A DNA stretch of 64,000 nt, from assembly GCF_001870905.1 (NCBI RefSeq), contig NZ_LNDC01000131.1, positions 1-64,000 on the forward strand, read 5' to 3'. The DNA is from Geitlerinema sp. PCC 9228. Its GTDB lineage: Bacteria; Cyanobacteriota; Cyanobacteriia; Cyanobacteriales; PCC-9228. Every line of letters begins with the position of its first letter. The first letter of the stretch is position 1. A program made the translations under genes and the position numbers. The notes beneath the pieces were generated by a model, which did no database searches, was not told the origin of the DNA, and worked only from the letters and a program-made list of their open reading frames with translations. This document shows, one piece after another, positions 141 to 22,181 of the stretch.

Positions 141-2744
141 TTATGGAGCTGTGGTGCGAGTAGCGGTAGCTAGGGGAGCTTGCTTTTGTGCTAGTTCTCG
201 GAATAAGGCGTACATATCGCTAGCAAATTGTTTGGGGTTCCAGATGGGGGCTAGGGATTCTGGTTGTTGGGAGCGTTCTAGTTGTTGAGATATTGCTTTT
301 CTAGCTTGGATGTCTTTGCCCAGCCAGATGGCTTTTTGGATGTATTCTTCCCAATTCCAGGCGATTCCGGCTTGCAAACCAACGTTGTGTAGTAAGGAAT
401 ATCCCATGCGGGCGAAAGATTGCTGACCTACGTGGGTAATGACGGGAAGATGCAGCCAAAGGGCTTCTAGGGTATGGGTGGCACCGTTGTAGGGATAGGA
501 GTCTAACAAGACATCGGCAATTTTATAAAGGAGACGGTGTTCTTCTTCGGTGCGAGTGCGGGGCATAAATTTGATTCGGTTGTAACTGATCCCATATTTT
601 TCGCAGGTACGCCAATATATCTGCTGCATCATTTTGGTATCGCCAACGCGCGCTTTGTATAGAAGAATGCTGTTGGGAACTGCCTGCAGAATTTGGATTT
701 GCGCTTCTACCATCTCGACGGAAAGTTTAAAACTAGGAGCAGCACATAAGTAGGCTACTTGCTCTTTTCCTATGCGCATGCCCCGACGGATGGTTTCTCG
801 AGCGCCAGGGGCGCATTGCAATCCAGAAATAGCTGTGAAGGAGTTAGGCATTCGGATGATTTTTTCTATGTAATGTGGTTCTACACCGGGGGGATGGGTG
901 AAGCGATCGCTTAGATAATAGTTACGATCGCAAATGTATGGGGCATCGTAGCCCAGCCAAGTAAGGCATACAGGAGCTGGTCGTGCTCGTAAAATCGCAA
1001 TATGGGACAGTACGGTGAGAGAATCCAAATCTACCAGTACATCAATGCCATCCCGAGAGACTTGTTCGATAATTTCTTGAGCATCGGCATTGCCCTTAGA
1101 ACGCTGGCTGCGGTAAAATTTCGTAGCTGCTTTCTCAAACAACGCCGTGCGGTCGTCAGCCTTCATTTCTCCAGTAACGTAGAGATAAATTTCTGTATGT
1201 AGCTGGGAAAGTTCTTGGAGAATATCAGCACTACACCAACCTACAGAGTGACGGCGGAAATGACGGGAAAGGAACCCAATGCGTAGGGGCCTGCGTTGGT
1301 CAAAGGTGGGATACACCCGCGGCGAATTTCCCAAAGCTGCTTGAATTTGCCGGTCGAGGTGCGCCCCATAGTAGTTGCCTACATACCGCGACAGCTTGCC
1401 GTTTTCAGCCACACCATCACGCAGGTGGTGCATGTCGAACAGGACATTGAGGTACACCTTGGTGAGTTCGTGAGGCTGTAGCTGGCTGCATTGCTGGTAA
1501 ACGAGCGGTTCTAACTTTTGAAACTGAGCTGCTGCCACTTGACTCAATCCCGATTTGAGATGGGTTTTGATAAAAATTGCCTTGGCTAAAATTTCTCCCG
1601 TACCCGTGCATTCTTGGCAAGCTCGTTCAGCAGCTTCCCTGGCCTCGCTCAGATCTGATTTGCTTCCCAGTAATTCGCACAAGTCCCAATGAGCGATCGC
1701 TGCTTCTGGCTGCTGGTCAATTGCTTTTTTTAAATAGAAAATCCCCTCTTCTTTTTTGCCTAAATTTACCAAACGGGAAGCTAAATGGTAGTAAGACTTA
1801 CCATCAAAAGCTTGAGGCTGGTGTTCGATCGCGCGTTTCCAAGCTGGAATCGCCTTATCCAGTCTTCCCTGTCGTTCCCAAACTTTCCCTAAATTCCAAT
1901 ATACCTCATGCAAATTGGGATTTAACCCCAGGGCTTTTTCATAATAAGCGATCGCGCGTTGCAGCTGATTGTGTTTGGATAGCAAACTGCCGATATTGGA
2001 AAAAGCTTCGGCAAAATCTGGTTGGTATTGCACTGCTTTCACATAAGCACGATACGCCGCTTCATCCTGACCGCGCGCCAGCAAACAATTCCCCAATAAT
2101 TTATAAGCCAAAGCCGATTGTGGTTGGCATTGAATGGCACGATAGCAAGCTGCGATCGCTTGTGGGATATTTTTCTGTTGCAAGTATAATTTGGCCAAAC
2201 ACTCGTAACCCCGTTCGTTGTCCGGCTGGAGTTCCAAAGCACGCCGGTAGGACCGTTCTGCCGCCACATATGCTTCCACCTCCTGCCACAAATCCCCAGC
2301 ATCCCTTGCCATTTGCGCCGCTTCCGATCCATTGCCCAACCGGAAATGCCATCGCTCCATATCCTCGTAGTATACCAACAAACGATCGACACTGCGCTGG
2401 CGATTTTTCTGAATTTCCTCACGCTCTCCTGGCGTAGATGGTCCTAAAACCAGTGCCTTTTGAAAATGTTGTACCGCTTCCAAAAGAGAACCGCGCGCGT
2501 GCAGAGCCAGTCCCAGATTGTTATAAAAAATAACCTTACCCGGCTCTAGCTCGATCGATTTTTCCAAAAGCGGAATCGCCGCCTTGAATTGACCGCGTTG
2601 GTACGCCACCACCCCCAGCCAATGTAGTGCTTCCGCGTTGTAAGGCTCGTGTTGGAGGAGATGTTTGTAGATTTTTTCGGCTGCCGATAGCTTACCCGAA
2701 CGGAGGTATCGCAGTGCATTTTTTAAAGCGATTGAACTTGCCAT
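141..2744 (-). CDS. TPR protein with SPINDLY/O-GlcNAc-transferase-like (GT41) domain
   Basis: 867 aa. Residues about 5-390 are tandem TPRs with typical W-LG-Y-G, NLG and A---Y--AL positions. Residues about 480-845 match the SPINDLY/OGT catalytic region (GT41): RIGFLSRHFRRHSVG, then GIDVLVDLDSLT, VCLTWLGYDAP, and DVLLDSYPYNGATHTLEALW near the sugar-nucleotide site. In bacteria such proteins transfer sugars to protein or glycan acceptors; the donor and acceptor here are unknown. It is the last gene of the minus-strand polysaccharide block, 53 bp after the upstream glycosyltransferase, so it probably shares the transcript. The start at 2744 is the first Met before the first TPR. Confidence 0.85.
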   Translation of the reverse strand: MASSIALKNALRYLRSGKLSAAEKIYKHLLQHEPYNAEALHWLGVVAYQRGQFKAAIPLLEKSIELEPGKVIFYNNLGLALHARGSLLEAVQHFQKALVLGPSTPGEREEIQKNRQRSVDRLLVYYEDMERWHFRLGNGSEAAQMARDAGDLWQEVEAYVAAERSYRRALELQPDNERGYECLAKLYLQQKNIPQAIAACYRAIQCQPQSALAYKLLGNCLLARGQDEAAYRAYVKAVQYQPDFAEAFSNIGSLLSKHNQLQRAIAYYEKALGLNPNLHEVYWNLGKVWERQGRLDKAIPAWKRAIEHQPQAFDGKSYYHLASRLVNLGKKEEGIFYLKKAIDQQPEAAIAHWDLCELLGSKSDLSEAREAAERACQECTGTGEILAKAIFIKTHLKSGLSQVAAAQFQKLEPLVYQQCSQLQPHELTKVYLNVLFDMHHLRDGVAENGKLSRYVGNYYGAHLDRQIQAALGNSPRVYPTFDQRRPLRIGFLSRHFRRHSVGWCSADILQELSQLHTEIYLYVTGEMKADDRTALFEKAATKFYRSQRSKGNADAQEIIEQVSRDGIDVLVDLDSLTVLSHIAILRARPAPVCLTWLGYDAPYICDRNYYLSDRFTHPPGVEPHYIEKIIRMPNSFTAISGLQCAPGARETIRRGMRIGKEQVAYLCAAPSFKLSVEMVEAQIQILQAVPNSILLYKARVGDTKMMQQIYWRTCEKYGISYNRIKFMPRTRTEEEHRLLYKIADVLLDSYPYNGATHTLEALWLHLPVITHVGQQSFARMGYSLLHNVGLQAGIAWNWEEYIQKAIWLGKDIQARKAISQQLERSQQPESLAPIWNPKQFASDMYALFRELAQKQAPLATATRTTAP

Positions 2745-4950: not shown

Positions 4951-5715
4951 TTATCCCCAAGAAAAATTTTTTTGTAAAAAAGCTTCTAGCCGTTGGTTGG
5001 GTTCTTTAAAATAACGTGCTAACGGTTGGCGAACTTGCCAACGCGCGAAGCGTTGGCATACGTTTTTAGGATATTCACCGCGATTGTAACGGGAACCTGT
5101 GGATATTTTACAGGTGGGAAGTTGCAAAAAAGAAAAAACGCGATCGAGGGTCGCTTGGGGATTTTGAAAAAACCTTTCGCTTTGGAGAATGCAAAATTGC
5201 GATCGCGGAAAATATTGCAGCCATCGCTGGATTTGTTCCAAATACAGACCGCGGGATAGGTAGCTATAATGCTGGTGGTTGTAGCTGGCATAATAGTGGC
5301 AGGCAATCATTTTTTCCACTTCTCCTTGCAAGCGTTGGGATTCCTGTGCGATCGCATCTGGTAGGGACAATTGTTCGAATCCCAAACGCACTTCGTGGTA
5401 GTATTGAGAGATGGCTCGTTCCACCGGATTGCGAAGCAAAACAATGAGTTTCATACGCGGATAACATTGAAAAACCCGTTCGGGAACCAAAGGATGAAAT
5501 AAATAGTAAGGCGTTGCTTCCCCCGAAATGGTCTGCGCCGGGAAATGATTCGGCGGAAAAAAGGCCTCGTACCAATCTACACCCAAATGGAAAGCCAAAT
5601 CGAAAAAATGAATTTCCTTCTCTTTTGCCGGTAGAATTTGGGGATGCTGTACCAGATATTGGTATAGAGAAGTCGTTCCCCCTTTTTGCGTACCAATAAT
5701 TAAAAAATCGGGCAT
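4951..5715 (-). CDS. PAPS-dependent sulfotransferase
   Basis: 254 aa. The N-terminal PDFLIIGTQKGGTTSLYQYL is the 5'-phosphosulfate-binding loop of the Sulfotransfer_1 (heparan-sulfate-type) family. KEIHFFDLAFHLGVDWY follows as expected, and LIVLLRNPVERAISQYYHE at about residues 90-108 is the 3'-phosphate-binding region. The reaction would be transfer of sulfate from PAPS to a hydroxyl or amino group, most plausibly on a sugar of the surface glycan. The gene lies 3 bp after a GT2 gene and 36 bp before a methyltransferase gene, fitting co-transcription. A second sulfotransferase-like gene is at 13457-14464. Confidence 0.88.
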   Translation of the reverse strand: MPDFLIIGTQKGGTTSLYQYLVQHPQILPAKEKEIHFFDLAFHLGVDWYEAFFPPNHFPAQTISGEATPYYLFHPLVPERVFQCYPRMKLIVLLRNPVERAISQYYHEVRLGFEQLSLPDAIAQESQRLQGEVEKMIACHYYASYNHQHYSYLSRGLYLEQIQRWLQYFPRSQFCILQSERFFQNPQATLDRVFSFLQLPTCKISTGSRYNRGEYPKNVCQRFARWQVRQPLARYFKEPNQRLEAFLQKNFSWG

Positions 5716-9050: not shown

Positions 9051-9914
9051 TTAAACCATTTCTTCAGTGGTTGGTAAATGCAGAAACTTCTTCATTTTCA
9101 ACCAGGAACTGCGCAGCCGCCAAAATTTGCTGCTTTTCATGGCAGCAATCATGGCTTGTTGGTGTAGTAATTCCGCTTGCAATTGGGTAATGGAATTCTG
9201 TAAGTGTTTGACTTGCTGTTCCGTGGCAGAAATTTGGCTGGATTCGCGTTTTCTGGCCCAACCCATGCGACCGCCGTGGGTAATGGCAAAATCGGTAAAA
9301 TCGGGATGCTGTTTGACCAGCAATTCGTAGACCATTTCTACTTGGGGAGTATCCAATTCGCGATCGCTTAAATGGCCAAATTCTTCTCGCCAGTTGGGAA
9401 TACAGCCACGCAAAACAAAATTCAAATCGTCAAAAACGATCCATCCCCCCGGTTTTAGCAATTTCGCCACCAACGCAAAAGCCAACCCATCGGTTTCCCA
9501 TTGATGCGCGCCATCCAAAAAACAAAAATCAAAAATGGGAGTACAAATATTGTCTTGGGTCTGTTTGGCAATTAAATCGGCCAAATACCAATTGTATCCC
9601 AACGGTTCGATCGCCACTTCCAAGGTATCGCCAACTTGGGTATGTTCTTGCAAACGGTAGGGATTGACCGATTCGTATAGCTGGCGATCGCAAGCCACCA
9701 CTTTGCCACCGCCATTCGCTGCCACCGCCGCCGCCATCACGCAGCTGGTGGTTCCGAAACCGCATCCCAATTCCAACCCCCAATGCAACTGATGGCTAGC
9801 AACAAACTCGTAAATATCGGCGATCGCATCTTCGGGAAGTAAAAAAATCGATTCCGGCCAAAAACCGCCAATTTCGTAACTTTGTAGCCGTTGCCAAATG
9901 GTTGCAAAATCCAT
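9051..9914 (-). CDS. SAM methyltransferase with C-terminal coiled coil and SKFW motif
   Basis: 287 aa. Class I methyltransferase core: LELGCGFGTTSCVMAAA at about residues 47-63, VVACDRQL, then DFCFLDGAHQWETDG and LLKPGGWIVFDDLNF, the pattern of Methyltransf_24-like enzymes. The last 60 residues form a coiled coil (VKHLQNSITQLQAELLHQQA) ending in MKSSKFWRLRSSWLKMKK. The same coiled coil plus SKFW unit occurs in the proteins at 10049-13426 and 13457-14464, suggesting a shared docking or membrane-proximal role (inference). Substrate probably a sugar. No clear ribosome-binding site before 9914. Confidence 0.82.
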   Translation of the reverse strand: MDFATIWQRLQSYEIGGFWPESIFLLPEDAIADIYEFVASHQLHWGLELGCGFGTTSCVMAAAVAANGGGKVVACDRQLYESVNPYRLQEHTQVGDTLEVAIEPLGYNWYLADLIAKQTQDNICTPIFDFCFLDGAHQWETDGLAFALVAKLLKPGGWIVFDDLNFVLRGCIPNWREEFGHLSDRELDTPQVEMVYELLVKQHPDFTDFAITHGGRMGWARKRESSQISATEQQVKHLQNSITQLQAELLHQQAMIAAMKSSKFWRLRSSWLKMKKFLHLPTTEEMV

Positions 9915-10048
9915 AACCTATTCAAAATACAGGACCCAAGGCTGCAACGCAGTTCAATAGAAGACCATCCCAAATCAAAGCAACGCACATTTGTCAGTGC
10001 GGTGAATTGTACCACGTACCCAGCGATTTGCTAGCGAGCCACATAGAA

Positions 10049-13000
10049 TTACGCGCCATCAAACAAAACCTCTAGCATATTGTACGCCGATCGCTGCGGG
10101 AAATACTGGCAAGCGTCTGCCATGGCTTGACGAACCAAACCATCGCGCAAATAGCGATCGCCAACCAAACGACTCACCGCCGCCACACAATCTTCGTGGG
10201 ATTCGCTATCTACCACCAACCCATTTTCTCCATCGCGGACAAAACTCACCGAACCACCGCGGCGGGGAACCACAACAGCCGTTCCGCAAAGCATCGCTTC
10301 CAACGCCGTCACCCCCAAAGCTTGAAATTTAGAAAAATCCACAAAAATATCCGCTTCGTTCATCAAAGCAGCTACTTGGCGGCGTTTTAACATGCCAGCA
10401 TGGCGCCAGGTAAAATCGTGGGGAAGTTCTTGGAAACGGGGGTCTTCCGAAAGGCAGCCAAACAAAACAATATCCACATCGCCACCAAAGCGACGGTCGA
10501 TTTCCCGCAAGACTTCCATCGTAAACCGCGGATTGCGTCGTGGGGTACTGGGACGAATCATCGCTGCAATGCGTACTTTGGCCGATCCATGTCGAAGCAG
10601 GGAATTTTCCTGCCGCAGCTGTTGGAAAGGTCGCGGACGAAACAAGTCTACATTGGCGCTGGGACCAATTAACGCACAATCTACGCCGATATGTTTTTTT
10701 ACCTCATCGCGATTCCACGGCGTTTTGGTAATGCGGACCAAATCCCGGTAGCGGGTGTAGGAATTCCAGGCGCGTTTGTATTCGGCAGACCCAGGAGAAA
10801 AGAAATAAGGCTCAAAATCCAGGATGTAATAAGCTTTCACCGTTTGATTGGGAAAGCGATCGAGTGCATCCATCCACTCCACAGAAGCATATAAAGTGGC
10901 AACCACTGCATCAAACTTGGGAAGAATCTTCCCCAACTCCTGCGGACCTTCCGCATAAACCACCGGAACCGGCAGGTCGGGATATCCCCGTTCAAAACCA
11001 GCTTGCATATGCGTCCAATTGGCAATTCTGGCGTCTACTCCCATTTCTTGCATGGCTTGCGCCGCTTGCAGGACCAAATTGCCACCACCGCCAGGTTCGG
11101 AAATTGGTAGTAAAAAGAGAACTCGCTTGCCTTCCCATTTCGCCATCCCTTTCTCGATGAGTTCCCGCTGTTGCCACAAATTGCGGACACGGACCCGGAT
11201 GCCTTCTAACACCCGGTTTTCCCGGCATTGGCTAACGCCAAAGGTAATGAGGTCTTGACCGTGTTTGCTGGCTAAAAGGCGATCGGCATTTTCGCAGAGG
11301 CGGCGACGGCGATCGCTGGTGTAACTGCGCGCCTGGTGGTGGTAAACGTAGGCATCGTCAGCAACCGCCAATTGCCATCCCGCCTGACGGGTTCGTAGGC
11401 AATAATCGTTCTCTTCTCCATATCCGGCAGCAAAGGTTTCTTCGTCGAAAATGCCAATATCTTCAATTAGCCGTCGCCGAATCAACAAACAGAACCCATT
11501 GAGAAACGGAATGCGGGGGTACAACCGCGCCGATACCTGCGCGATCGCATTGGCTACTTCTGCAGTATCCATTCCCTCTGGCAGAAAATTATCGGCCCAA
11601 TCGCCGCGTTCGTCAAAAATTTCCGGAACCGACTGCCAAGAAGCTTTATTGGAAAGCGGTCCCACCAAACCAATGGTAGGGTCGGATTCGGCACATTGAA
11701 CCATGCGATCGAGCCAATTGGGTGTCACAATGGTATCGCTGTTCAACAGCAAAGCATAATCGCCGCTGGATTGTCGCAATCCCTGGTTGGCCGCTAGGGT
11801 GTAGCCGCGCGCGTTTTCATTGCGTAGTAGGGTGGCGTTTTGGGAAGTGGCAAAGCGTTCTAAATAGGTTTTGGTTTCCACCTTGCTGCCGTCGTCTACC
11901 AAAATTAGGTGGTATGGCATGGAGGTGTAGCGAATCACAGACGCCAAACACCGTTTGACATCTGCCAAAGCGTTGTGAACGCAAACAATAATATCTACCG
12001 TTGCTGTATGAGGTTGTAGTGGTGGTGGGTAGGGAACTTCCTCAAAAAAAGCTTGCGATTGGGAATCTGGTGGCGTTGTGGTTGCTGGTGTCGGCTGCGA
12101 TTGGGGAATCGGTGGCATTCCCACTTCTACCGTTGGCGCTTTCAGGTAGTCGGGATTTCTGGTGAAGAGAAATTTCAGGCGGTTTTTCAAGCGAAACCAG
12201 GCATTGCGCAGCTGCCAAAACTTGCTGGTTTCCATGGCCGTGATGGTTAAATTGGCGCGATCGAGTTGCCATTGGGTGGTGGATAGTTCTTGTTGGGTTT
12301 TTTGTAGCTGCGATTGCCACTGAGATTGCGCTTGCGCCTGGTCTGCTTCTTGTTGCTGCAGTTTTTGTTCGTATTGCTGGCGAATTTCTTCGCGTTCTTG
12401 ATGGAGTTTTTGGGATTTTTCGGCAAATTCTTGTTCTTTTTGCCAGAGTTTTTGCTGCCACTGGCGTTCGGTTTGCTGCAATTTGGCTTGCAGGGGTTCT
12501 ACTTGCGATCGCAACTGTTGTAGCTGTGTTTGCGATCGCTGTAACTGTCGGGACAAATCTTCTTGTTTTTTTAGCGATCGCTCTAATTGTAATTCAATTT
12601 CACGGCGTTTTTCCTGTTCCGATAAATAGCGAAATTCTGCCTCTGCAAATACGTTGGCAAAATGCGCTGTATACAAACGCAAATGCTTTTGACTGATGTA
12701 TCGAACCAGCTGGCGGCGGTTTTCTGGCAAGTTACAAGCACTCACCATAGAGTTGTGGCGGCAGCGATAGTCAAACAAAACTTCCGGAAGGCGATAAAAC
12801 TGCCATTGGTTTTCCAAAGCTGACAGCCAAAAATCCCAATCTTCATATCCCAACTGTTTGGGAATATGGGGATCGTAACCACCACAGTCTTGCCAAACCC
12901 GCTTGCGAATCACTGCACAAGCATCGATTTGATTGCCATTGAGAATTTGACTTAAATCCACTTCGGGAAATTCCCAAGTTCCCGTTTTCTCGCCAAACAG

Positions 13001-13426
13001 TTCCGCATAGCCGTGAACCACACCCACTTGGGGATAGGTATCCAAAATTTCCGCACCTTTGGTAATATAATTGGCGCGAATGCGATTGTCCGCATCCAAA
13101 GGTAAAAAATAGCGACCCTGCGCTGCTTTTACACCTGTATTTCTCGCCGCTGCCAAACCAGCATTTTCTTGGTGTTCGATAACTCGATAGCCTCGTTCTT
13201 TTAAATAAGTAAGGGTCTTTTGGGTAAGTTCCTCTGTAGAAGCATCGTCAATAATAAGAATTTCGTAAATCGGTTGCTGGCAGGTTTCCACGCTGGCAAT
13301 GGCCTCTAGAAGAAATTCCCCGTGGTTGTAACAGGGAATAATGACTGAAACGGCAATATCTGTTTTCTCGTCAGGGGTTTTGGCAATTTGGCTGTCTGGT
13401 TCTTCCCAGATTTGCGGCTGGTTCAT
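10049..13426 (-). CDS. three-domain glycosyltransferase (GT2 - coiled coil - GT2 - GT4)
   Basis: 1125 aa. Domain 1 (about 25-250) is GT2: VSVIIPCYNHGEFLLEAI, ILIIDDAS, ENAGLAAARNTG, FLPLDADN. Residues about 285-400 are a long Gln/Glu-rich coiled coil ending in METSKFWQLRNAWFRLKNR. Domain 2 (about 470-720) is a second GT2: VDIIVCVHNALADVKRCLAS, LILVDDGS, LLNSDTIV, GYGEENDYCLRTRQAGW. Domain 3 (about 765-1120) is GT4: VLFLLPISEPGGGGNLVLQA, AAMIRPSTPRRNP, SKFQALGVTALEAMLCGT and RDGENGLVV. Such a chain could build several linkages of one repeat unit. GAGGAG lies upstream of the start. Start and stop are 30 bp and 134 bp from neighbours. Confidence 0.9.
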   Translation of the reverse strand: MNQPQIWEEPDSQIAKTPDEKTDIAVSVIIPCYNHGEFLLEAIASVETCQQPIYEILIIDDASTEELTQKTLTYLKERGYRVIEHQENAGLAAARNTGVKAAQGRYFLPLDADNRIRANYITKGAEILDTYPQVGVVHGYAELFGEKTGTWEFPEVDLSQILNGNQIDACAVIRKRVWQDCGGYDPHIPKQLGYEDWDFWLSALENQWQFYRLPEVLFDYRCRHNSMVSACNLPENRRQLVRYISQKHLRLYTAHFANVFAEAEFRYLSEQEKRREIELQLERSLKKQEDLSRQLQRSQTQLQQLRSQVEPLQAKLQQTERQWQQKLWQKEQEFAEKSQKLHQEREEIRQQYEQKLQQQEADQAQAQSQWQSQLQKTQQELSTTQWQLDRANLTITAMETSKFWQLRNAWFRLKNRLKFLFTRNPDYLKAPTVEVGMPPIPQSQPTPATTTPPDSQSQAFFEEVPYPPPLQPHTATVDIIVCVHNALADVKRCLASVIRYTSMPYHLILVDDGSKVETKTYLERFATSQNATLLRNENARGYTLAANQGLRQSSGDYALLLNSDTIVTPNWLDRMVQCAESDPTIGLVGPLSNKASWQSVPEIFDERGDWADNFLPEGMDTAEVANAIAQVSARLYPRIPFLNGFCLLIRRRLIEDIGIFDEETFAAGYGEENDYCLRTRQAGWQLAVADDAYVYHHQARSYTSDRRRRLCENADRLLASKHGQDLITFGVSQCRENRVLEGIRVRVRNLWQQRELIEKGMAKWEGKRVLFLLPISEPGGGGNLVLQAAQAMQEMGVDARIANWTHMQAGFERGYPDLPVPVVYAEGPQELGKILPKFDAVVATLYASVEWMDALDRFPNQTVKAYYILDFEPYFFSPGSAEYKRAWNSYTRYRDLVRITKTPWNRDEVKKHIGVDCALIGPSANVDLFRPRPFQQLRQENSLLRHGSAKVRIAAMIRPSTPRRNPRFTMEVLREIDRRFGGDVDIVLFGCLSEDPRFQELPHDFTWRHAGMLKRRQVAALMNEADIFVDFSKFQALGVTALEAMLCGTAVVVPRRGGSVSFVRDGENGLVVDSESHEDCVAAVSRLVGDRYLRDGLVRQAMADACQYFPQRSAYNMLEVLFDGA

Positions 13427-13456
13427 AGCAACGTCTCCTCGAAATGCTTTCCTATT

Positions 13457-14464
13457 TTACCGGAAAAACCATCCCCATACCTGCTTTTTGAAATTGTGCC
13501 AACCTTGATAGACCGGCCAAAATTTGGAAGCTTGGATGGTGGCTAGTTGCGATCGCAATTGTTGGAGTTCCCACAGGTATTTTTGTTGTTGCTGCATCGA
13601 TTGCAGGCTATCTCGATACATTTGCAAAACCAATTCCGCCGCCTCGCTATTTTCCGAGTTTGATAAATTACCCGAAAAACCGCTAGGCAAATCGGCAACA
13701 CTATCCAAATTTGCCAAAAGTTGCAGGCTTTCCGGATACAAGCGTTCCAGCAAACCCACCAGAGGATGGTTTCTAGGTAACTGGCGAAACATTTGCGCGT
13801 CGAAAATAGAAGCAGCTTCTGGTTTGGCTTGCCAATGGGGGGGGGACGAAAATTGAAATTTCTCCCGCAATAATTGTACGAGTTTTTCTGGTTCCTCCCA
13901 CAAACGATTGACATTGCATAAAATACAGCGGTGGGGATGGCGGCGATAAAAGTCCCACAGGTGGCGATTGTAATACTGCCAAATTTTTAGGGGATAGTCG
14001 GGGTTTTCTAAAAAAATGGGTGCGTTCAAACGGAAAATGGAATCCACCACATCCCAAGGATAGCGATAGACCAATATGTAATTGGTTTCTGGTAGCAATT
14101 CCTGCCAAAAATCAAGTAAAAGGGTGGTGCGCGGATCTTTCCATCCCCACCAGCGATGTTTCTGGCGTTTGCGGAGAAGTTCTTTGGCAGCTTCTGTATA
14201 GTTGGAAAATTTTTGGCGGTCTAATTGTTCGTTTTCTGTCCATCCCCAATCGACCCAACCGCCATCGTCTTGCGGACAGCAATCCGCTAATAGCGATCGC
14301 TGAAATTGCAAAAAATCAATATCTTCAAAATAGCCTTTGGCATTGTGTCGATCTGCCTGCCAAAATTCTTCCCCCAAATCGACTCCCAACGCCTGCAAAA
14401 AAGCTGCTGTCAGTGACGTACCGGAACGATGCATTCCCGCGATCGCAAGTGGTGGATGTAGCAT
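13457..14464 (-). CDS. sulfotransferase-family protein with C-terminal SKFW motif
   Basis: 335 aa. LAIAGMHRSGTSLTAAFLQ near the N-terminus is the phosphate-binding loop of the sulfotransferase family, followed by KGYFEDIDFLQFQRSLL, WWGWKDPRTTLLLDFWQE and ILVYRYPWDVVDSIFRLN, the 3'-phosphate site. The last 60 residues are a coiled coil (MQQQQKYLWELQQLRSQL) ending in ASKFWPVYQGWHNFKKQ, matching the module in two neighbours. The ATG at 14464 is preceded by GGGAG and lies 2 bp after the upstream stop; a GTG at 14491 is less likely. Probably sulfates the surface glycan, although relatives with other acceptors exist. Confidence 0.82.
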   Translation of the reverse strand: MLHPPLAIAGMHRSGTSLTAAFLQALGVDLGEEFWQADRHNAKGYFEDIDFLQFQRSLLADCCPQDDGGWVDWGWTENEQLDRQKFSNYTEAAKELLRKRQKHRWWGWKDPRTTLLLDFWQELLPETNYILVYRYPWDVVDSIFRLNAPIFLENPDYPLKIWQYYNRHLWDFYRRHPHRCILCNVNRLWEEPEKLVQLLREKFQFSSPPHWQAKPEAASIFDAQMFRQLPRNHPLVGLLERLYPESLQLLANLDSVADLPSGFSGNLSNSENSEAAELVLQMYRDSLQSMQQQQKYLWELQQLRSQLATIQASKFWPVYQGWHNFKKQVWGWFFR

Positions 14465-14466
14465 TT

Positions 14467-15333
14467 CTATGTCTCCCACATTTCCTGCCACTGGGGTTTG
14501 GGAAAATTATATAAATGGGAGGACGTTTTTACCCGCGTTGGCGTTCCTTTGATTGCTACAAATGTAGCGCGATCGGCTTGTTTTTGCTGTCGCATAACTT
14601 CATATTTTGGTACCAAAGGTTGGTGGCATTCGTAAACAGATGTAAACCCAACGCGATCGCAAAAATTCAATAGCGAAGCGCGCGTTAGCCAGAAACTTTG
14701 CACGTTATCCAAAGAAGACCAAAGCACGTTTTTTCTTTCTTTCAAACTCGATTTAGGACTATGTTCGCTGTAAATACGTCCCCAATAAGTTTGCTGCTGG
14801 TACTGATAGGAAATTTCGGCATTCAAAGCAACATGGGTGTCCAAAATTACCAAACCGCGGCAAGCGTGAGCAATATTTTCCAAAAAAGAAAATACATCGG
14901 GAACGTCTAAATGGTAAAGAATTCCCAAACAAAGAATCACGTCAAAATAACCGTATTTTTCCGCAGAAAAATAGCGCACATCATCTTGACAAAAAGAGAT
15001 ATTTTTGGTACCCAAAACCTTTTTAGCAAACCGCGCCTTTTCCAAATTGGCTGAGCGCGCCTCAATTCCTACCACATCCGCCCCTTGCAAAGCCATTTCC
15101 AGTCCGTACAATCCTTCCAAACAAGCCAAATCCAACACCCGCAAATTTTCCCAAGAATTGGGCATCCAATCGGCAACAATTTGCAAAATTCGCTGTACCT
15201 TTACTTCCGACCCCACCAAACGATGGGAATCAATGGTGTACAAATCCTCTTGCAAACAAATATTGTGATTGGTCCATTCGCCAAAAGCATCAACAATCTC
15301 TTGCCGGCGACGTTCAATGTCATCGCGTTTCAT
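14467..15333 (-). CDS. SAM-dependent methyltransferase (CmoB/DUF1698-like)
   Basis: 288 aa. The segment LRVLDLACLEGLYGLEMALQ is motif I, VVGIEARSANLEKARF is motif II, and YFDVILCLGILYHLDVPDVF matches the tRNA mo5U34 methyltransferase-like branch (Methyltransf_9). Despite that resemblance, homologues inside polysaccharide clusters are usually small-molecule or sugar methyltransferases, so a tRNA role is not assumed. A GAGG sequence lies about 8 bases before the ATG. It is the first gene after the mobile-element relic and the ABC exporter, reading in the same direction. Confidence 0.8.
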   Translation of the reverse strand: MKRDDIERRRQEIVDAFGEWTNHNICLQEDLYTIDSHRLVGSEVKVQRILQIVADWMPNSWENLRVLDLACLEGLYGLEMALQGADVVGIEARSANLEKARFAKKVLGTKNISFCQDDVRYFSAEKYGYFDVILCLGILYHLDVPDVFSFLENIAHACRGLVILDTHVALNAEISYQYQQQTYWGRIYSEHSPKSSLKERKNVLWSSLDNVQSFWLTRASLLNFCDRVGFTSVYECHQPLVPKYEVMRQQKQADRATFVAIKGTPTRVKTSSHLYNFPKPQWQEMWET

Positions 15334-15432: not shown

Positions 15433-15675
15433 CATGGAAATCTCCGTCAAACGGGGAATGTTTTCCTCGCCAATGTTTTTAGGACTGGTGGGGCTAACGG
15501 CACTGCCTTCCCCTGTTAGGGCAGTTTAACCGTTAACGGCAGGGCGACCAACACCGAAAGCATTTGTAGGTACCATGACCTGAAAAACGTAGTCAGTTCG
15601 TTAAGATTTAAGCCGATCAGCTACCTGAAGCTGGAGGCATGAAACCCCCGTGCTTCAGCCGGGGGGGCTGACTTG
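15433..15675 (+). mobile_element. decayed 3' end of an IS200/IS605 (TnpB-type) element
   Basis: Read on the plus strand, one frame from about 15532 to the TGA at 15640-15642 stays open (it contains TNTESICRYHDLKN and RFKPISYLKLEA) and stops two bases before a strong hairpin, CCCCCG-t-GCT-tc-AGC-CGGGGG, at 15645-15665. A tnpB reading frame ending at a GC-rich hairpin is the usual right-end layout of such elements, where the omega RNA scaffold also lies. A TAG at 15517-15519 interrupts the frame and no 5' part of tnpB is present, so this is a relic. Identification rests on architecture and remembered similarity, not on an alignment. Confidence 0.5.
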
Positions 15676-17068
15676 ATGGATTTTGGATGGAGATTTGTTC
15701 GCGGGAAGTCAGCTGCGGTTCGATCAGCAGATCCACAATACCGCTGCTGAAGGAGTCGTTGTTAGGAAGAACGCGAAACATCGCCACATCAATGCGCCGG
15801 TCCATATAGGTAAACTGACCATCGACCACGCCGGAAACCCCAGCATTGAGAAAATAAACCCCAGGATTGAGCACGCATTTAAAATGAAATTGTACCGTTA
15901 GCAAGGTACCCGCCTCGATATGGCTTTCGGTTTGCGAAGCCGTCACAAAAGAAGCGCCACCTAACTCCAATCCCCGTACGGTTTTGATTAGCATCCCCAA
16001 ACGAACGTTGTTAGCCGACTTTTGAAAGCGAATGGCATAGGTGTAAATATAGTCGCGACGGCTAATCAGATTGTTAACCACCATCCCCTCGGGGGTCGTC
16101 ACCTGGGGGTCGATAATGGTGGCACCGCGGGAAATATACGAAGTGGTGGAATCGGGAACCAAATTGGGGTCAAAAAACTCCTCCATCGCCGTTGCTTCGC
16201 TGGTTTCCCTGTCGTGACCGTTGCGACTGGTTTTTAACTCCAGCGCGGTGGAGGTCTCCTTTTGGGGGGTCAAAGCAGTCAGGGAAGATTGCTGACTATG
16301 GCAAATTTCCTGGCGCAGGAAGGGATATTGCTCGCTGGGTGCATAAATGAGCTTGTGGTATTTGTCCAAAACCACCTTGGGATGGTGGCGCAGCAGCAGT
16401 TCCCCGTGGTCCATCAAAACGGCTTCATCGCACAGTTCCAACACCTGGGAAGCGGAGTGGGAGACGAACAAAATAATGCCTCCCCTTTCCCGAATCTCGC
16501 GAATGCGTGCGAAACACTTGCGCTGGAAAGCTTCATCGCCAACGGAAAGTGCCTCATCGACCACCAGAATATCCGGTTCCACGTTAATGGCGACAGCAAA
16601 CGCCAGCCGCATGAACATACCGCTGGAGTAAGTTTTTACCGGTCGGTCGATAAAATCGCCAATATCGGCAAAACCGGCAATATCGTTGAATTTGGCGTCG
16701 ATTTGTGCGGGGGTGAGGCCGAGCAACTGGCCGTTAAAAAAAACGTTTTGCCGCCCGGTAAATTCTGGGTTAAAACCGCTTCCCAATTCTAGCAATGCGG
16801 AAATTTTTCCCCCTACCGAAACCTCTCCGGTGGTTGGCAGCAGGGTACCGGCAATAATTTGTAAGAGGGTACTTTTGCCAGATCCATTGCGTCCGACAAT
16901 GCCGAGGGTTTCTCCCCAGGCGACTTCTAAATTAATGTTTTGTAGCGCCCAAAATTCTTCAGCACGGCTTTTTCCTGGCAGCAGGAGTTCCTTGAGGCGA
17001 TCGACCGGATGGTGGTATCGCTTGAAGCACTTGCATACATTTTGGAGCGAAATGGCAATCTCACTCAT
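15617..17068 (-). CDS. polysaccharide ABC exporter ATPase, Wzt-like
   Basis: 483 aa. Walker A is GRNGSGKST at residues 59-67, the signature is TYSSGMFMRLAF at about 145 and Walker B is DILVVDEALSVGDEAF. The typical WALQNINLEV start and VSHSASQVLELCD switch His are present. Residues about 310-450 form a beta-rich C-terminal domain like that of Wzt proteins, which reads the finished glycan (RGATIIDPQVTTPEG, GVYFLNAGVSGVVDG). Its permease partner is 55 bp upstream. The last 17 or so residues (PPRLKHGGFMPPASGS) are encoded by the antisense of the IS-like relic at 15600-15665, so the native C-terminus was probably replaced by the insertion. Confidence 0.92.
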   Translation of the reverse strand: MSEIAISLQNVCKCFKRYHHPVDRLKELLLPGKSRAEEFWALQNINLEVAWGETLGIVGRNGSGKSTLLQIIAGTLLPTTGEVSVGGKISALLELGSGFNPEFTGRQNVFFNGQLLGLTPAQIDAKFNDIAGFADIGDFIDRPVKTYSSGMFMRLAFAVAINVEPDILVVDEALSVGDEAFQRKCFARIREIRERGGIILFVSHSASQVLELCDEAVLMDHGELLLRHHPKVVLDKYHKLIYAPSEQYPFLRQEICHSQQSSLTALTPQKETSTALELKTSRNGHDRETSEATAMEEFFDPNLVPDSTTSYISRGATIIDPQVTTPEGMVVNNLISRRDYIYTYAIRFQKSANNVRLGMLIKTVRGLELGGASFVTASQTESHIEAGTLLTVQFHFKCVLNPGVYFLNAGVSGVVDGQFTYMDRRIDVAMFRVLPNNDSFSSGIVDLLIEPQLTSREQISIQNPSSQPPRLKHGGFMPPASGS

Positions 17069-17123: not shown

Positions 17124-17981
17124 TTATAAGACATCGGCAAAGGCACCCCGCAGGCGACGGTAGCAGCTAAACCCGAGATAGGCAACGACCACGGAGACGG
17201 CGGCAGCTACCGACCAAGGCAACAGGTGCCGCACCTGTCCCACTAGGGTGAGGTCGCGATAGACTTGGGAAAAGGCGGCCATGGGGTTTAACAGCAATAC
17301 CCACTGCTGCCACTGTTCGGGAATGAGGCTGACCGGATAGACGATGGGGGTGAGGTAAAACCACAGGCTCATGAGGACGTTGAGGGTTTGGGGAATGTCC
17401 CGCAAAAAGACGGTTAACCCGGCGGATAGATATCCCAAGCCTGCGGTGAAGAGAAAGTGGGGAATGGCGACTAGGGGTAACAACCAAATGGTGTGGGGGA
17501 GTTGTTGGGTCGCGATCGCGATTAAAAGCAGCAGCACCAACAATCCCATTAAGCTTTCAATAAATGTAGAGAAAATCGGTATGATGGGCAGCAGGGAGAG
17601 GGGAAAGACGACTTTTTTGACCAGATTGGGTTGGTTGACCACTGCACTGGTGGACTGTATGAAACCGGTGACAAAGGTGGTCCAAGGCAACAAACCGGCA
17701 AACAGCCACAACCCAAATCCCACGTTGGTTTGGGGGAGGTCTTCTAGATTGAGTTTTAGGTTGAGAACTACCGAAAATACGTAGGTGTAAATTAAAAGTT
17801 GGGCCAGTTGGTTGAGTAGCGGCCAGAAGTTGCCTAAAACCGATCCTTTGTATTTGGCTTCCAAATCCCGACGTACTAAGGTTTTTAACAAATCCAACTT
17901 AAAGCGCCATTGCGGATTCAAGGAAAACAGCCGGGATTTGACGTTGCTTCCTCGCGATCGCGTTTCTTTCAGAAAGCTCAT
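17124..17981 (-). CDS. polysaccharide ABC exporter permease, Wzm-like
   Basis: 285 aa, an ABC-2 type membrane protein. The N-terminus carries the cytoplasmic LVRRDLEAKYKGSVLGNFWP motif common to TagG/Wzm/KpsM proteins. About six hydrophobic segments follow: QLLIYTYVFSVVL, FGLWLFAGLLPWTTF, ESLMGLLVLLLLIAIA, IWLLPLVAIPHFLFTAGLG, PQTLNVLMSLWFYLTPIVYP and SVAAAVSVVVAYLGF. With the downstream Wzt-like ATPase it would move a lipid-linked or reducing-end-capped glycan across the inner membrane. It is the first gene of the 13-gene block, so the block promoter should lie in 17982-18180. Confidence 0.92.
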   Translation of the reverse strand: MSFLKETRSRGSNVKSRLFSLNPQWRFKLDLLKTLVRRDLEAKYKGSVLGNFWPLLNQLAQLLIYTYVFSVVLNLKLNLEDLPQTNVGFGLWLFAGLLPWTTFVTGFIQSTSAVVNQPNLVKKVVFPLSLLPIIPIFSTFIESLMGLLVLLLLIAIATQQLPHTIWLLPLVAIPHFLFTAGLGYLSAGLTVFLRDIPQTLNVLMSLWFYLTPIVYPVSLIPEQWQQWVLLLNPMAAFSQVYRDLTLVGQVRHLLPWSVAAAVSVVVAYLGFSCYRRLRGAFADVL

Positions 17982-20922: not shown

Positions 20923-21411
20923 ATGAAAAGATACATCGCTCTGGCGGTAGCCACTGTATTTTTCGCCTTCCACGTTCTGGTAGGCAGCGCCATAGCCATT
21001 GACCTAGATCCCGAGGTACGTACGGTCAAACTCAACCCAGAAGGGGAGAATATTACGCTGACCAACAAACAAGCAGAACGAGGGAAACGTTTGTTTAACG
21101 ACGTTTGCGCTCAGTGCCACAACGGCGGGGAAACCAAAACCAATCCCAATGTGAATTTAAGCCAGAGCAGTTTGGAAAGAGCCAACCCTGCTCGCGACAA
21201 TTTGGAAGCTTTGGTGGACTACATGAAAAACCCCACCACCTACGATGGTTTTGAAGAAATTCCCGAACTGCATCCCAACACCCAGCGTAGCGATTTGTAT
21301 CCCGAAATGCGCAATCTGACGGAGTCGGAACTGCGCGATATTGCCGGTCATATCCTCATCCAACAGCAGGTTCTCGGTCCCCGGTGGGGTGGCGGGAAGG
21401 TTTACTTCTAA
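20923..21411 (+). CDS. psbV: cytochrome c550 of photosystem II
   Basis: 162 aa. A signal peptide (ALAVATVFFAFHVLVGSAIA, cleavage near residue 25) directs it to the thylakoid lumen. The mature protein begins IDLDPEVRTVKLNPEG, typical of PsbV. Haem is bound at C62-A-Q-C65-H66, and the conserved YMKNPTTYDG follows, with an axial His expected in the ELHPN segment. It stabilises the oxygen-evolving complex as an extrinsic PSII subunit. The GAGG before ATG supports the start. A psbV2-like gene follows 230 bp downstream in the same direction. Confidence 0.96.
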   Translation: MKRYIALAVATVFFAFHVLVGSAIAIDLDPEVRTVKLNPEGENITLTNKQAERGKRLFNDVCAQCHNGGETKTNPNVNLSQSSLERANPARDNLEALVDYMKNPTTYDGFEEIPELHPNTQRSDLYPEMRNLTESELRDIAGHILIQQQVLGPRWGGGKVYF

Positions 21412-21641
21412 CCTTTCCACGGGTAACTTCCCACTTCAACCTTCCGTGGGGGGAAATGGATTTTTCCCACCTATGTTTTCTAGGAACGGTTCTTCCGGGT
21501 ATCTGATGGATCTCCCAAAACCTGCCATCGTTGCTTGTTGGCACTTTGTCTGGGGAAAGGTTCTTCAGTTTCCCTGAGACCGTTCCTAGTTTTTCCCTGT
21601 TGCCGTCAAGCATTGTTTTCCCAACGAGCCATATCGGTTGT

Positions 21642-22181
21642 ATGTTTTTCCAAAAAATATCCGTTCCCACAGGCTGGTCAAGCGCGATCGCTGTCAAACT
21701 ATCGATTTTCGTCGGTACAGCGGTTGCATTTTTTTTAACGGCTTTGCCAGCACAAGCCGCTTCTATAGACGCCTACGTTAAGCAATATTTGCGGGCTACC
21801 GCACCAGTGGAAATTCCCTACAATGCCCAGGGAGAAACTAGAGAATTTTCGCCCCAGGCGTTGTCTGACGGGAAAAAACTATTTGAAGAAAATTGTTTGA
21901 ACTGCCACGTTGGTGGATCCACTCTCCCCAATCCCCGAGTTTCCCTTTCCTTAGAAGACTTACAAGGGGCTTCGCCACCGCGGGATAATATCGACAATTT
22001 GGTTGTTTACATGCGCCAACCTATGACCTATGACGGTCAGTATGCCAGCGACTGGTGCCGTAAAGTCCCCGATACTTGGATGTCGCGCCAGCAAGTAGAG
22101 AACCTGGCTGCTTTTATCCTACGAGCGGCCGAAAAAGCGCCGGGGTGGGGTGTTGATACCTTTGGAGATAGCCCTTTTTGA
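21642..22181 (+). CDS. psbV2: PsbV2-like cytochrome c550 homologue
   Basis: 179 aa from 21642. A hydrophobic export signal (KLSIFVGTAVAFFLTALPAQ) ends near AQAA. The body parallels PsbV: haem site C85-L-N-C88-H89, VSLSLEDLQGASPPRDNIDN and YMRQPMTYDGQY, but the PsbV axial-His segment is altered to DWCRKVPDTWMS. This is the feature of PsbV2 proteins, known from some cyanobacteria and often encoded directly behind psbV. Its role is unclear; it is not essential in organisms where it was studied, as I recall. The start at 21642 is chosen because the signal peptide begins there; an in-frame ATG-like start at 21531 would add 37 residues of low-quality sequence. Confidence 0.88.
   Translation: MFFQKISVPTGWSSAIAVKLSIFVGTAVAFFLTALPAQAASIDAYVKQYLRATAPVEIPYNAQGETREFSPQALSDGKKLFEENCLNCHVGGSTLPNPRVSLSLEDLQGASPPRDNIDNLVVYMRQPMTYDGQYASDWCRKVPDTWMSRQQVENLAAFILRAAEKAPGWGVDTFGDSPF

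Follow-up and report, generated by a model that had tools for sequence, protein, structure and literature searches.

Three consecutive genes of one operon of Geitlerinema sp. PCC 9228 were found to encode a methyltransferase, a GT2-GT2-GT4 glycosyltransferase and a PAPS sulfotransferase, each carrying a coiled coil followed by the motif SKFWx(L/V)xxxWxxxK. This coil-motif unit appears to be shared, transferable and unnamed, and it is tied to clusters for ABC (Wzm/Wzt) export rather than to polysaccharide clusters at large. We consider it probable that the unit is an unnamed modular membrane-side foot of a coiled-coil stalk, borne by enzymes of ABC-dependent (Wzm/Wzt) glycan assembly.

The window, which is the whole stretch of 64,000 nucleotides analysed, had been initially annotated as carrying a coiled coil plus SKFW module in three enzymes, at the C-terminus in two and internally in one. 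Both statements agreed with our results. Pfam assigned the three proteins (Table 1) to Methyltransf_24, GT2+GT2+GT4 and Sulfotransfer_3, and the central Trp of the motif was located 22 aa before the C-terminal end of the methyltransferase (W265, KSSKFWRLRSSWLKMKKFLHL), 19 aa before that of the sulfotransferase (W325 in the numbering of the GTG-started ORF, QASKFWPVYQGWHNFKKQVWG), and internally, at W404 of 1125, in the glycosyltransferase (GT) protein (ETSKFWQLRNAWFRLKNRLKF). The sulfotransferase ORF has an ATG at 14464 and a longer GTG-started version from 14491. The stalks of the methyltransferase and the sulfotransferase are short (about 35-40 residues), and the long stalk is that of the GT protein, of which the predicted helix of 151 residues would span about 226 angstrom (1.5 angstrom per residue), with block pLDDT of 56-91 along the coil. 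The motif was absent from the remaining enzymes of the cluster (methyltransferase at 14467-15333, sulfotransferase at 4951-5715, and others). The same cluster contains an ABC (Wzm/Wzt) exporter, its Wzt having a carbohydrate-binding domain.

Table 1. Features of the window that bear on the coil-motif unit (the motif is listed as putative foot).
Feature	Position	Strand	Basis
Class I methyltransferase (Methyltransf_24), C-terminal coil and putative foot	9051..9914	-	PF13578 E=2.6e-12
Coiled coil of methyltransferase, about aa 225-259	9138..9242	-	Sequence; heptad register locked to motif
Putative foot motif of methyltransferase, aa 256-281, IAAMKSSKFWRLRSSWLKMKKFLHLP	9072..9149	-	Motif/profile match
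GT2 - long coil - putative foot - GT2 - GT4 protein, 1125 aa	10049..13426	-	Pfam; architecture
Long coil of GT protein, single predicted helix aa 249-399	12230..12682	-	AlphaFold2
Putative foot motif of GT protein, aa 395-420, ITAMETSKFWQLRNAWFRLKNRLKFL, internal	12167..12244	-	Profile match; AlphaFold2 break, then helix 402-418
PAPS-type sulfotransferase, C-terminal coil and putative foot	13457..14491	-	PF13469 E=4.4e-10; Foldseek matches to sulfotransferases
Coil helix of sulfotransferase, aa 283-321	13529..13645	-	AlphaFold2
Putative foot motif of sulfotransferase, aa 316-343	13463..13546	-	Profile match; AlphaFold2, separate helix 325-343 past break at 322-324
Wzt-type ABC ATPase, C-terminal Wzt_C carbohydrate-binding domain at 15728-16144	15617..17068	-	PF14524 E=2.9e-26
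Wzm-type ABC permease	17124..17981	-	Homology to Wzm

That the three copies exceed chance similarity, as had been supposed, was indicated by profile A3, which was built from nine foreign sequences and no window sequence. When the whole 4.8 Mb genome was searched with this profile, the top three matches were the window proteins (E = 5.1e-16, 1.1e-15 and 5.9e-4), and no further copy was found in the genome, the next match having E = 0.6. A coil-free profile of 25 columns, built from 94 foreign copies and run on the window ORFs, gave the three carriers at 3e-15, 3e-12 and 0.008, followed by a short ORF at 0.055. Judged from these E-values (5.9e-4 with A3, 0.008 with the coil-free profile), the sulfotransferase copy is the weakest and leans partly on its position and company.

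The unit had been supposed to lack a name, and this view was upheld. No Pfam model covered the motif in the window proteins, in ten further hosts or in the proteobacterial tails described below, where only generic coil models appeared below threshold; of the NCBIfam matches listed for the window proteins, none covered it; and a literature search by the literal motif letters gave no relevant paper. The possibility that the motif is a piece of a known catalytic fold, which had been named as grounds for abandoning the idea, was rejected in agreement with Pfam, because the sulfotransferase model puts the motif outside the catalytic domain and the Foldseek matches of this model are ordinary PAPS sulfotransferases.

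The anatomy of the unit was then analysed for 214 non-redundant hosts. The heptad phase was found to be locked to the motif across these hosts, with hydrophobic peaks at −30, −27, −23, −20, −16, −13, −9 and −6. At ESSK the heptad breaks, its phase moving by about 100 degrees, and gives way to a helix that is hydrophobic, basic and aromatic, with a mean charge of +4.3 at −1 to +13. AlphaFold2 interrupts the helix at the motif, at residues 322-324 of the sulfotransferase and 400-401 of the GT protein. Amphipathicity over 18 residues was at the level of shuffled sequences (mean z 0.09), and exceeded it only in the −1 to +13 core (z 0.80), a result that counts against the membrane-foot reading. 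This anatomy bears on the proposal that the module is a mere self-oligomerisation tail, its last helix capping a homo-oligomeric coil with neither membrane nor partners of importance. The heptad register is indeed unbroken as far as the motif, and trimerisation of WbdD, the chain terminator of E. coli O9a and K. pneumoniae O3, is driven by its bundle (PMC3482155). The phase shift at ESSK and the mean charge of about +4 to +6 are, however, ill-suited to continued coil packing, and a cap need neither concentrate in ABC-exporter clusters nor separate head from polymerase modules; we therefore regard this explanation as improbable.

Such a separation was observed in the domain order of the same 214 hosts. 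The methyltransferase domain was located N-terminal of the motif in 71 and C-terminal in 8, and the sulfotransferase domain N-terminal in 35 and C-terminal in none. Sets of GT2/GT4 come after internal motifs, for example in the orders MT-coil-foot-GT2-GT2 (8 hosts) and Sulfo-coil-foot-GT2-GT2 (5 hosts). This arrangement agrees with the published domain order of coiled-coil rulers of chain length.

The module was detected in 65 of 100 genomes of the same order, often with several copies per cluster, in line with the earlier statement that other cyanobacterial surface-glycan enzymes have similar tails. An O-antigen ABC transporter of the Wzt_C type was encoded no more than 15 kb from 61 of 108 copies, against 0.77 expected, which rules against a random spread over unrelated loci, the other outcome that had been named as fatal to the idea. 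Copies also lie close to each other, 50 of 63 same-genome pairs being no more than 15 kb apart (0.34 expected). Both Wzm and Wzt homologues were present in 40 of the 61 neighbourhoods examined, and none of the 38 copies tested had a Wzy_C gene within 20 kb. The link to polysaccharide clusters, which had been put forward for testing, was thereby refined: copies are concentrated in surface-glycan clusters next to an ABC exporter, rather than in polysaccharide clusters in general. As a separate observation, 46 of the 108 copies lie more than 20 kb from Wzt_C, some with other ABC genes, some at contig ends and some unexplained, and this counts against the membrane-foot reading.

The contig scan used A3; the diverse alignment A2 had no sufficiently conserved stretch. 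The strict pattern [AG]M[EKQ][ST]SKFW, derived from A3 and therefore blind to other dialects of the motif, gave 310 confirmed places, cyanobacterial throughout among the matches listed. A plasmid collection gave one Nostoc copy, located beside a Wzm/Wzt pair, and the phage sequences searched gave no match.

The most strictly conserved residues are W0, W+6, S−3, K−2, R+3 and K+10. Conservation of the motif is stricter than plain membrane binding requires, an observation that counts against the membrane-foot reading. Near-invariant residues across the second helix suggest a specific partner, and the foot might accordingly be a protein-docking helix that binds either the exporter (Wzm or Wzt) or a shared polymerase at a conserved surface, membrane contact being incidental. 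The tight linkage to Wzm/Wzt (Wzt_C) together with the absence beside Wzy makes the exporter a plausible partner, and the C-terminal region of WbdD recruits the WbdA polymerase (PMC11231755). Co-evolving partners predict a clear similarity within clusters, but motif identity was 0.559 within one cluster and 0.532 between clusters, and some copies are located in neighbourhoods without detectable Wzm/Wzt. Docking of this kind is thus rather unlikely in our estimate, and a cluster-specific docking code was rejected, since within-cluster similarity is barely above background and the effect is very small.

The within-locus comparison also concerns neutral module shuffling, by which Gln-rich repetitive coil DNA would recombine between neighbours and carry the tail along without function. 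The coils are repetitive, and near-alike tails were observed inside one cluster of Moorena-type loci (L045, L046). Nevertheless, only 1 of 180 within-locus pairs was more than 95% identical, and the conserved residues survive where overall identity is low, the window copies being 33% and 22% identical, as well as in unrelated enzymes, which points to selection. Of the explanations considered, neutral shuffling has hardly any likelihood.

Returning to the membrane-side foot, its seating in the membrane is suggested by the composition of the helix and by analogy with WbdD. The stalk would keep the N-terminal heads (sulfo- or methyltransferase, or capping GT) away from the membrane, and the GT modules C-terminal of the foot would remain adjacent to it. 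As stalk and foot occur in three consecutive genes, the sulfotransferase, the methyltransferase and the multi-GT protein would be collected where growth and export of the lipid-linked chain take place, and by the same analogy these enzymes may assemble into one complex. The coil may also act as a ruler, a function that coil lengths do not support, since by a crude measure modifying enzymes and GTs did not differ significantly (p = 0.06). We further propose, with considerable doubt, that the phase-locked Ile/Met core beside the foot allows mixed stalks, in which chains of the sulfotransferase, the methyltransferase and the GT protein join in hetero-bundles on shared feet, and that a single device seated in the membrane carries out elongation, decoration and capping of the polymer. 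If so, the foot would serve ABC-dependent glycans of both cyanobacteria and proteobacteria as a general assembly tag.

For the ABC-dependent pathways of O-antigen, capsule and exopolysaccharide, a few enterobacterial prototypes show how cytoplasmic enzymes come together at the membrane, and we know of no experimental model for those cyanobacterial glycan clusters that include sulfo- and methyltransferases. A short sequence that marks where the stalk meets the membrane would make genomes readable for the members of the machine and for the likely distal capping enzyme, and would also indicate where deletions should be placed. The motif would connect WbdD-type rulers with a large set of such cyanobacterial clusters, and offers a portable tag for testing.

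WbdD resembles the window proteins in the succession of head enzyme, coil and motif-like coil end, and in the adjoining Wzm/Wzt. The coil of E. coli WbdD runs into IEKIHRSRSWRMTKGYRYL (W595), with the related sequence SRSWRMT at the coil end; at positions −9, −6, −3, −2, 0, +1, +2, +6 and +9 it has I, I, S, R, W, R, M, Y and L, against I, M, S, K, W, K, L, W and L in cyanobacteria. The WbdD C-terminus holds an amphipathic helix and a polymerase-binding region (PMC3447403; PMC11231755), and WbdD 1-600 expresses well, whereas the full-length protein is hard to solubilise (PMC3447403). In hhalign, the WbdD tail matched the motif profile with a probability of 92% (E=6e-7) in one comparison that included the coil. 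By PSSM, WbdD of O9 ranked 4 and that of O8 47 among 925 Trp windows; WbdD was first of 358 ORFs with the full profile (E=2e-4), and was absent from the matches listed with the motif-only profile. WbdD differs in having about 110 further residues after the motif, Thr for the +3 Arg, Ser for the −1 Phe and a kinase domain, and one coiled-coil protein is described in its cluster, against three in the Geitlerinema window.

Compared by domain order only, WbbB (K. pneumoniae O12) and ORF6 of K. pneumoniae O7, in which terminator, coil and polymerase GTs form one chain (PMC11231755), have the same order as the MT- and Sulfo-coil-foot-GT2-GT2 proteins, but other head enzymes. Proteobacterial SxSWRLTAPLR tails were found in a Bradyrhizobium methyltransferase, a Ruegeria sulfotransferase and a Rhizobium MT24-coil-GT2-GT2 protein. 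The sources of proteobacterial examples as a whole were a collection of plasmids and a single E. coli record. In the tails, a coil is followed by S-x-[SF]-W-[KR]-[LIA], either as the very end of the protein or between the head and the two GT2 domains, and the Trp mostly by T-A-P-L-R (with proline) instead of RxxWFxLKK. With the cyanobacteria-only PSSM, four of these tails ranked 1, 2, 3 and 7 of the 925 Trp windows; the tails sit in glycan clusters, and ABC exporter genes adjoin three of the five. As in WbdD and WbbB, an extended coil was found on a modifying or capping enzyme in the window (helices 249-399 of the GT protein and 283-321 of the sulfotransferase; short in the methyltransferase and sulfotransferase), and a putative distal cap with polymerase GTs on the membrane side was found as domain order only, as GT2-coil-foot-GT2-GT4. 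A tag of this kind recurs in other phyla, next to export pumps of the same type, and it probably holds the enzymes at the inner membrane, the place of polymer synthesis; judged from sequence, the unit would form the base of a WbdD-related coiled-coil architecture of the ruler type.

Gene checking and domain searching confirmed the positions and enzyme classes that the initial annotation had assigned to a methyltransferase, a triple glycosyltransferase (GT) and a sulfotransferase, and a coiled coil followed by the SKFW motif (the foot) was found in all three. The cluster, in its order of transcription, starts with the ABC exporter genes (permease Wzm, ATPase Wzt) and continues beyond the three carriers with more GT, methyltransferase and sulfotransferase genes on the minus strand. 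The carriers hold the only copies of the module in the 4.8 Mb Geitlerinema genome: a whole-genome search with a profile of nine sequences, all from other organisms (A3), ranked them on top (E = 5.1e-16, 1.1e-15 and 5.9e-4; next match, 0.6). The most divergent of the three motifs was that of the sulfotransferase, SKFWPVYQGW. As the second PAPS-type sulfotransferase carries neither coil nor foot, one of the two sulfotransferases of the cluster is tagged.

Genes of the glycan cluster and other genes observed in the window
Gene	Position	Strand	Remark
Adjacent small c-type cytochrome genes	20923-21411 and 21531-22181	(+)	PsbV (cytochrome c-550)- and PsbV2-like, by eye only
Wzm	17124-17981	(-)	start of cluster transcription order
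Wzt	15617-17068	(-)	next to Wzm in transcription order
Methyltransferase	14467-15333	(-)	between Wzt and the three coil-foot genes
Sulfotransferase	13457-14491 (ATG at 14464)	(-)	coil and foot
GT2-GT2-GT4 protein	10049-13426	(-)	coil and foot; 1125 residues
Methyltransferase	9051-9914	(-)	coil and foot
Second PAPS-type sulfotransferase	4951-5715	(-)	PF00685, E = 4e-21
Large TPR-repeat protein	141-2744	(-)	cluster end; C-terminal half similar by eye to O-GlcNAc-transferase/SPINDLY-type GT41

A three-sequence profile detected the module in 65 of 100 same-order genomes, and a broader one detected it in 65 of 292 genomes sampled across the phylum. Scanning of 84,980 species genomes for the strict pattern [AG]M[EKQ][ST]SKFW gave 310 confirmed places, every one of cyanobacterial origin among the matches listed. 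Of 63 pairs of copies in the same genome, 50 were no more than 15 kb apart, where random placement would give 0.34. Wzt_C, the carbohydrate-binding domain of Wzt, was encoded no farther than 15 kb from 61 of 108 copies (expected, 0.77); a copy was near 41 of 62 strong Wzt_C matches and 0 of 54 weaker ones (Fisher p = 9e-16). Homologues of both Wzm and Wzt were found in 40 of 61 neighbourhoods (20 kb each, plus the window), several of these without Wzt_C. For control, 23 genomes with 106 matches to Wzy_C, the marker of Wzy-dependent assembly, were picked from those with copies far from Wzt_C, and none of 38 motif copies lay within 20 kb of Wzy_C. The copies thus cluster together and adjoin ABC exporters instead of being scattered over unrelated loci, indicating that the module is associated with ABC-dependent, not Wzy-dependent, assembly.

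Two sets of loci gave 245 host proteins (214 non-redundant), classified in bulk by home-made profiles grown from domains of the window proteins; samples were verified against Pfam. The head enzymes included Sulfotransfer_3, several methyltransferase families (Methyltransf_24 and Methyltransf_21/FkbM among them), GT2, GT4, GT8 and a PhyH dioxygenase; one host was a fusion that includes radical SAM and aminotransferase domains. The motif formed the protein end in 158 of 214 hosts, and internal motifs were nearly always followed by a GT2-GT2, GT2-GT4 or GT4-GT4 set; sulfotransferase or methyltransferase domains preceded the motif in 106 cases and followed it in 8. Among loci from other genomes, L072:9975-14768 (-) encodes a 1597-residue fusion of sulfotransferase, SPASM/radical SAM and class-III aminotransferase with the foot at its end; two successive feet about 50 residues apart were observed near the C-terminus in L085:5426-7945, L116:3301-5820, L121:5032-7620, L128:11196-14324 and L140:10735-13248; and L078:8739-11335 carries two foot-bearing genes that converge from opposite strands, their motifs separated by about 100 bases.

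Numbered from the first Trp of the motif, information content peaked at I-9, M-6, S-3, K-2, F-1, W0, L+2, R+3, W+6, F+7, K+10 and L+13. Mean hydrophobicity followed a clean heptad (-30, -27, -23, -20, -16, -13, -9, -6), identical in register in unrelated hosts, with a shift of about 100 degrees after -6; mean charge was +4.3 over -1 to +13, and amphipathicity of the foot was modest. AlphaFold2 (monomer, 12-row alignments) predicted a helix break at residues 322-324 of the sulfotransferase (pLDDT 82-88 over 301-340) and, more weakly, at 400-401 of the GT fragment (pLDDT 53-68), followed in both by a new helix of 17-19 residues. For the GT coil a single helix spanning 151 residues was predicted; at 1.5 angstrom per residue its length would be about 226 angstrom, which is near the approximately 200 angstrom reported for WbdD (PMC5082667; PMC6286764). 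By structure comparison the catalytic part of the sulfotransferase resembles ordinary PAPS sulfotransferases, and no Pfam or NCBIfam model covering the tail was found; the motif therefore lies outside the known catalytic fold.

The coil of E. coli HS WbdD (locus L102) ends in LRQEIEKIHRSRSWRMTKGYRYLG, which includes W595. Proteobacterial tails of the S-x-SWRLTAPLR type, anticipated ahead of the search, were retrieved by tblastn started from the WbdD tail. A Bradyrhizobium methyltransferase with such a tail adjoins Wzm/Wzt, a Ruegeria sulfotransferase and a Leclercia protein adjoin ABC exporter genes, a Leisingera protein also carries the tail, and a Rhizobium protein is organized as Methyltransf_24-coil-SRSWRATRPFR-GT2-GT2. 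With a PSSM made of cyanobacterial motifs alone, the anchoring Trp omitted, the proteobacterial and WbdD tails ranked 1, 2, 3, 4, 7, 10, 21 and 47 out of the 925 Trp windows present in these loci. Profile-profile comparison with WbdD gave 92% probability with the coil included; WbdD was not detected by a coil-free HMM. These similarities support a common architecture of the cyanobacterial, WbdD and proteobacterial tails, and their origin is probably also common, the stretch being too short to prove homology.

From the coil end onward, WbdD has an amphipathic membrane helix and a polymerase-binding site (PMC3447403; PMC11231755). Truncated at residue 600, five positions past W595, WbdD was well expressed, and the full protein was hard to solubilise (PMC3447403). 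By analogy, the foot is probably seated at the membrane. Modifying or capping heads would then be held away from the membrane, with polymerising GTs at the stalk base: in the 1125-residue protein the N-terminal GT2, separated from the foot by the long stalk, would be a distal, possibly capping, transferase, the GT2-GT4 part would lie near the membrane, and the sulfo- and methyltransferase of the window would stand on short stalks. Foot-bearing enzymes may form mixed complexes, and the stalks may serve as rulers; the modest amphipathicity of the foot, and a coil length that did not separate the enzyme classes, caution against reading too much into the analogy. The motifs of cluster mates were barely more alike than those of strangers, which is easier to reconcile with a generic target (the membrane, for example) or a single conserved partner than with private docking pairs. 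Terminators that combine a coiled coil with a membrane-associated helix are already known; within the open PMC literature, the common stalk-base sequence, its occurrence in many enzyme families and in several genes per cluster, and the dialects it shows in two phyla appear to be unnamed so far. The order terminator-coil-polymerase published for WbbB and ORF6 of K. pneumoniae O7 (PMC11231755) is the same as that in the module hosts.
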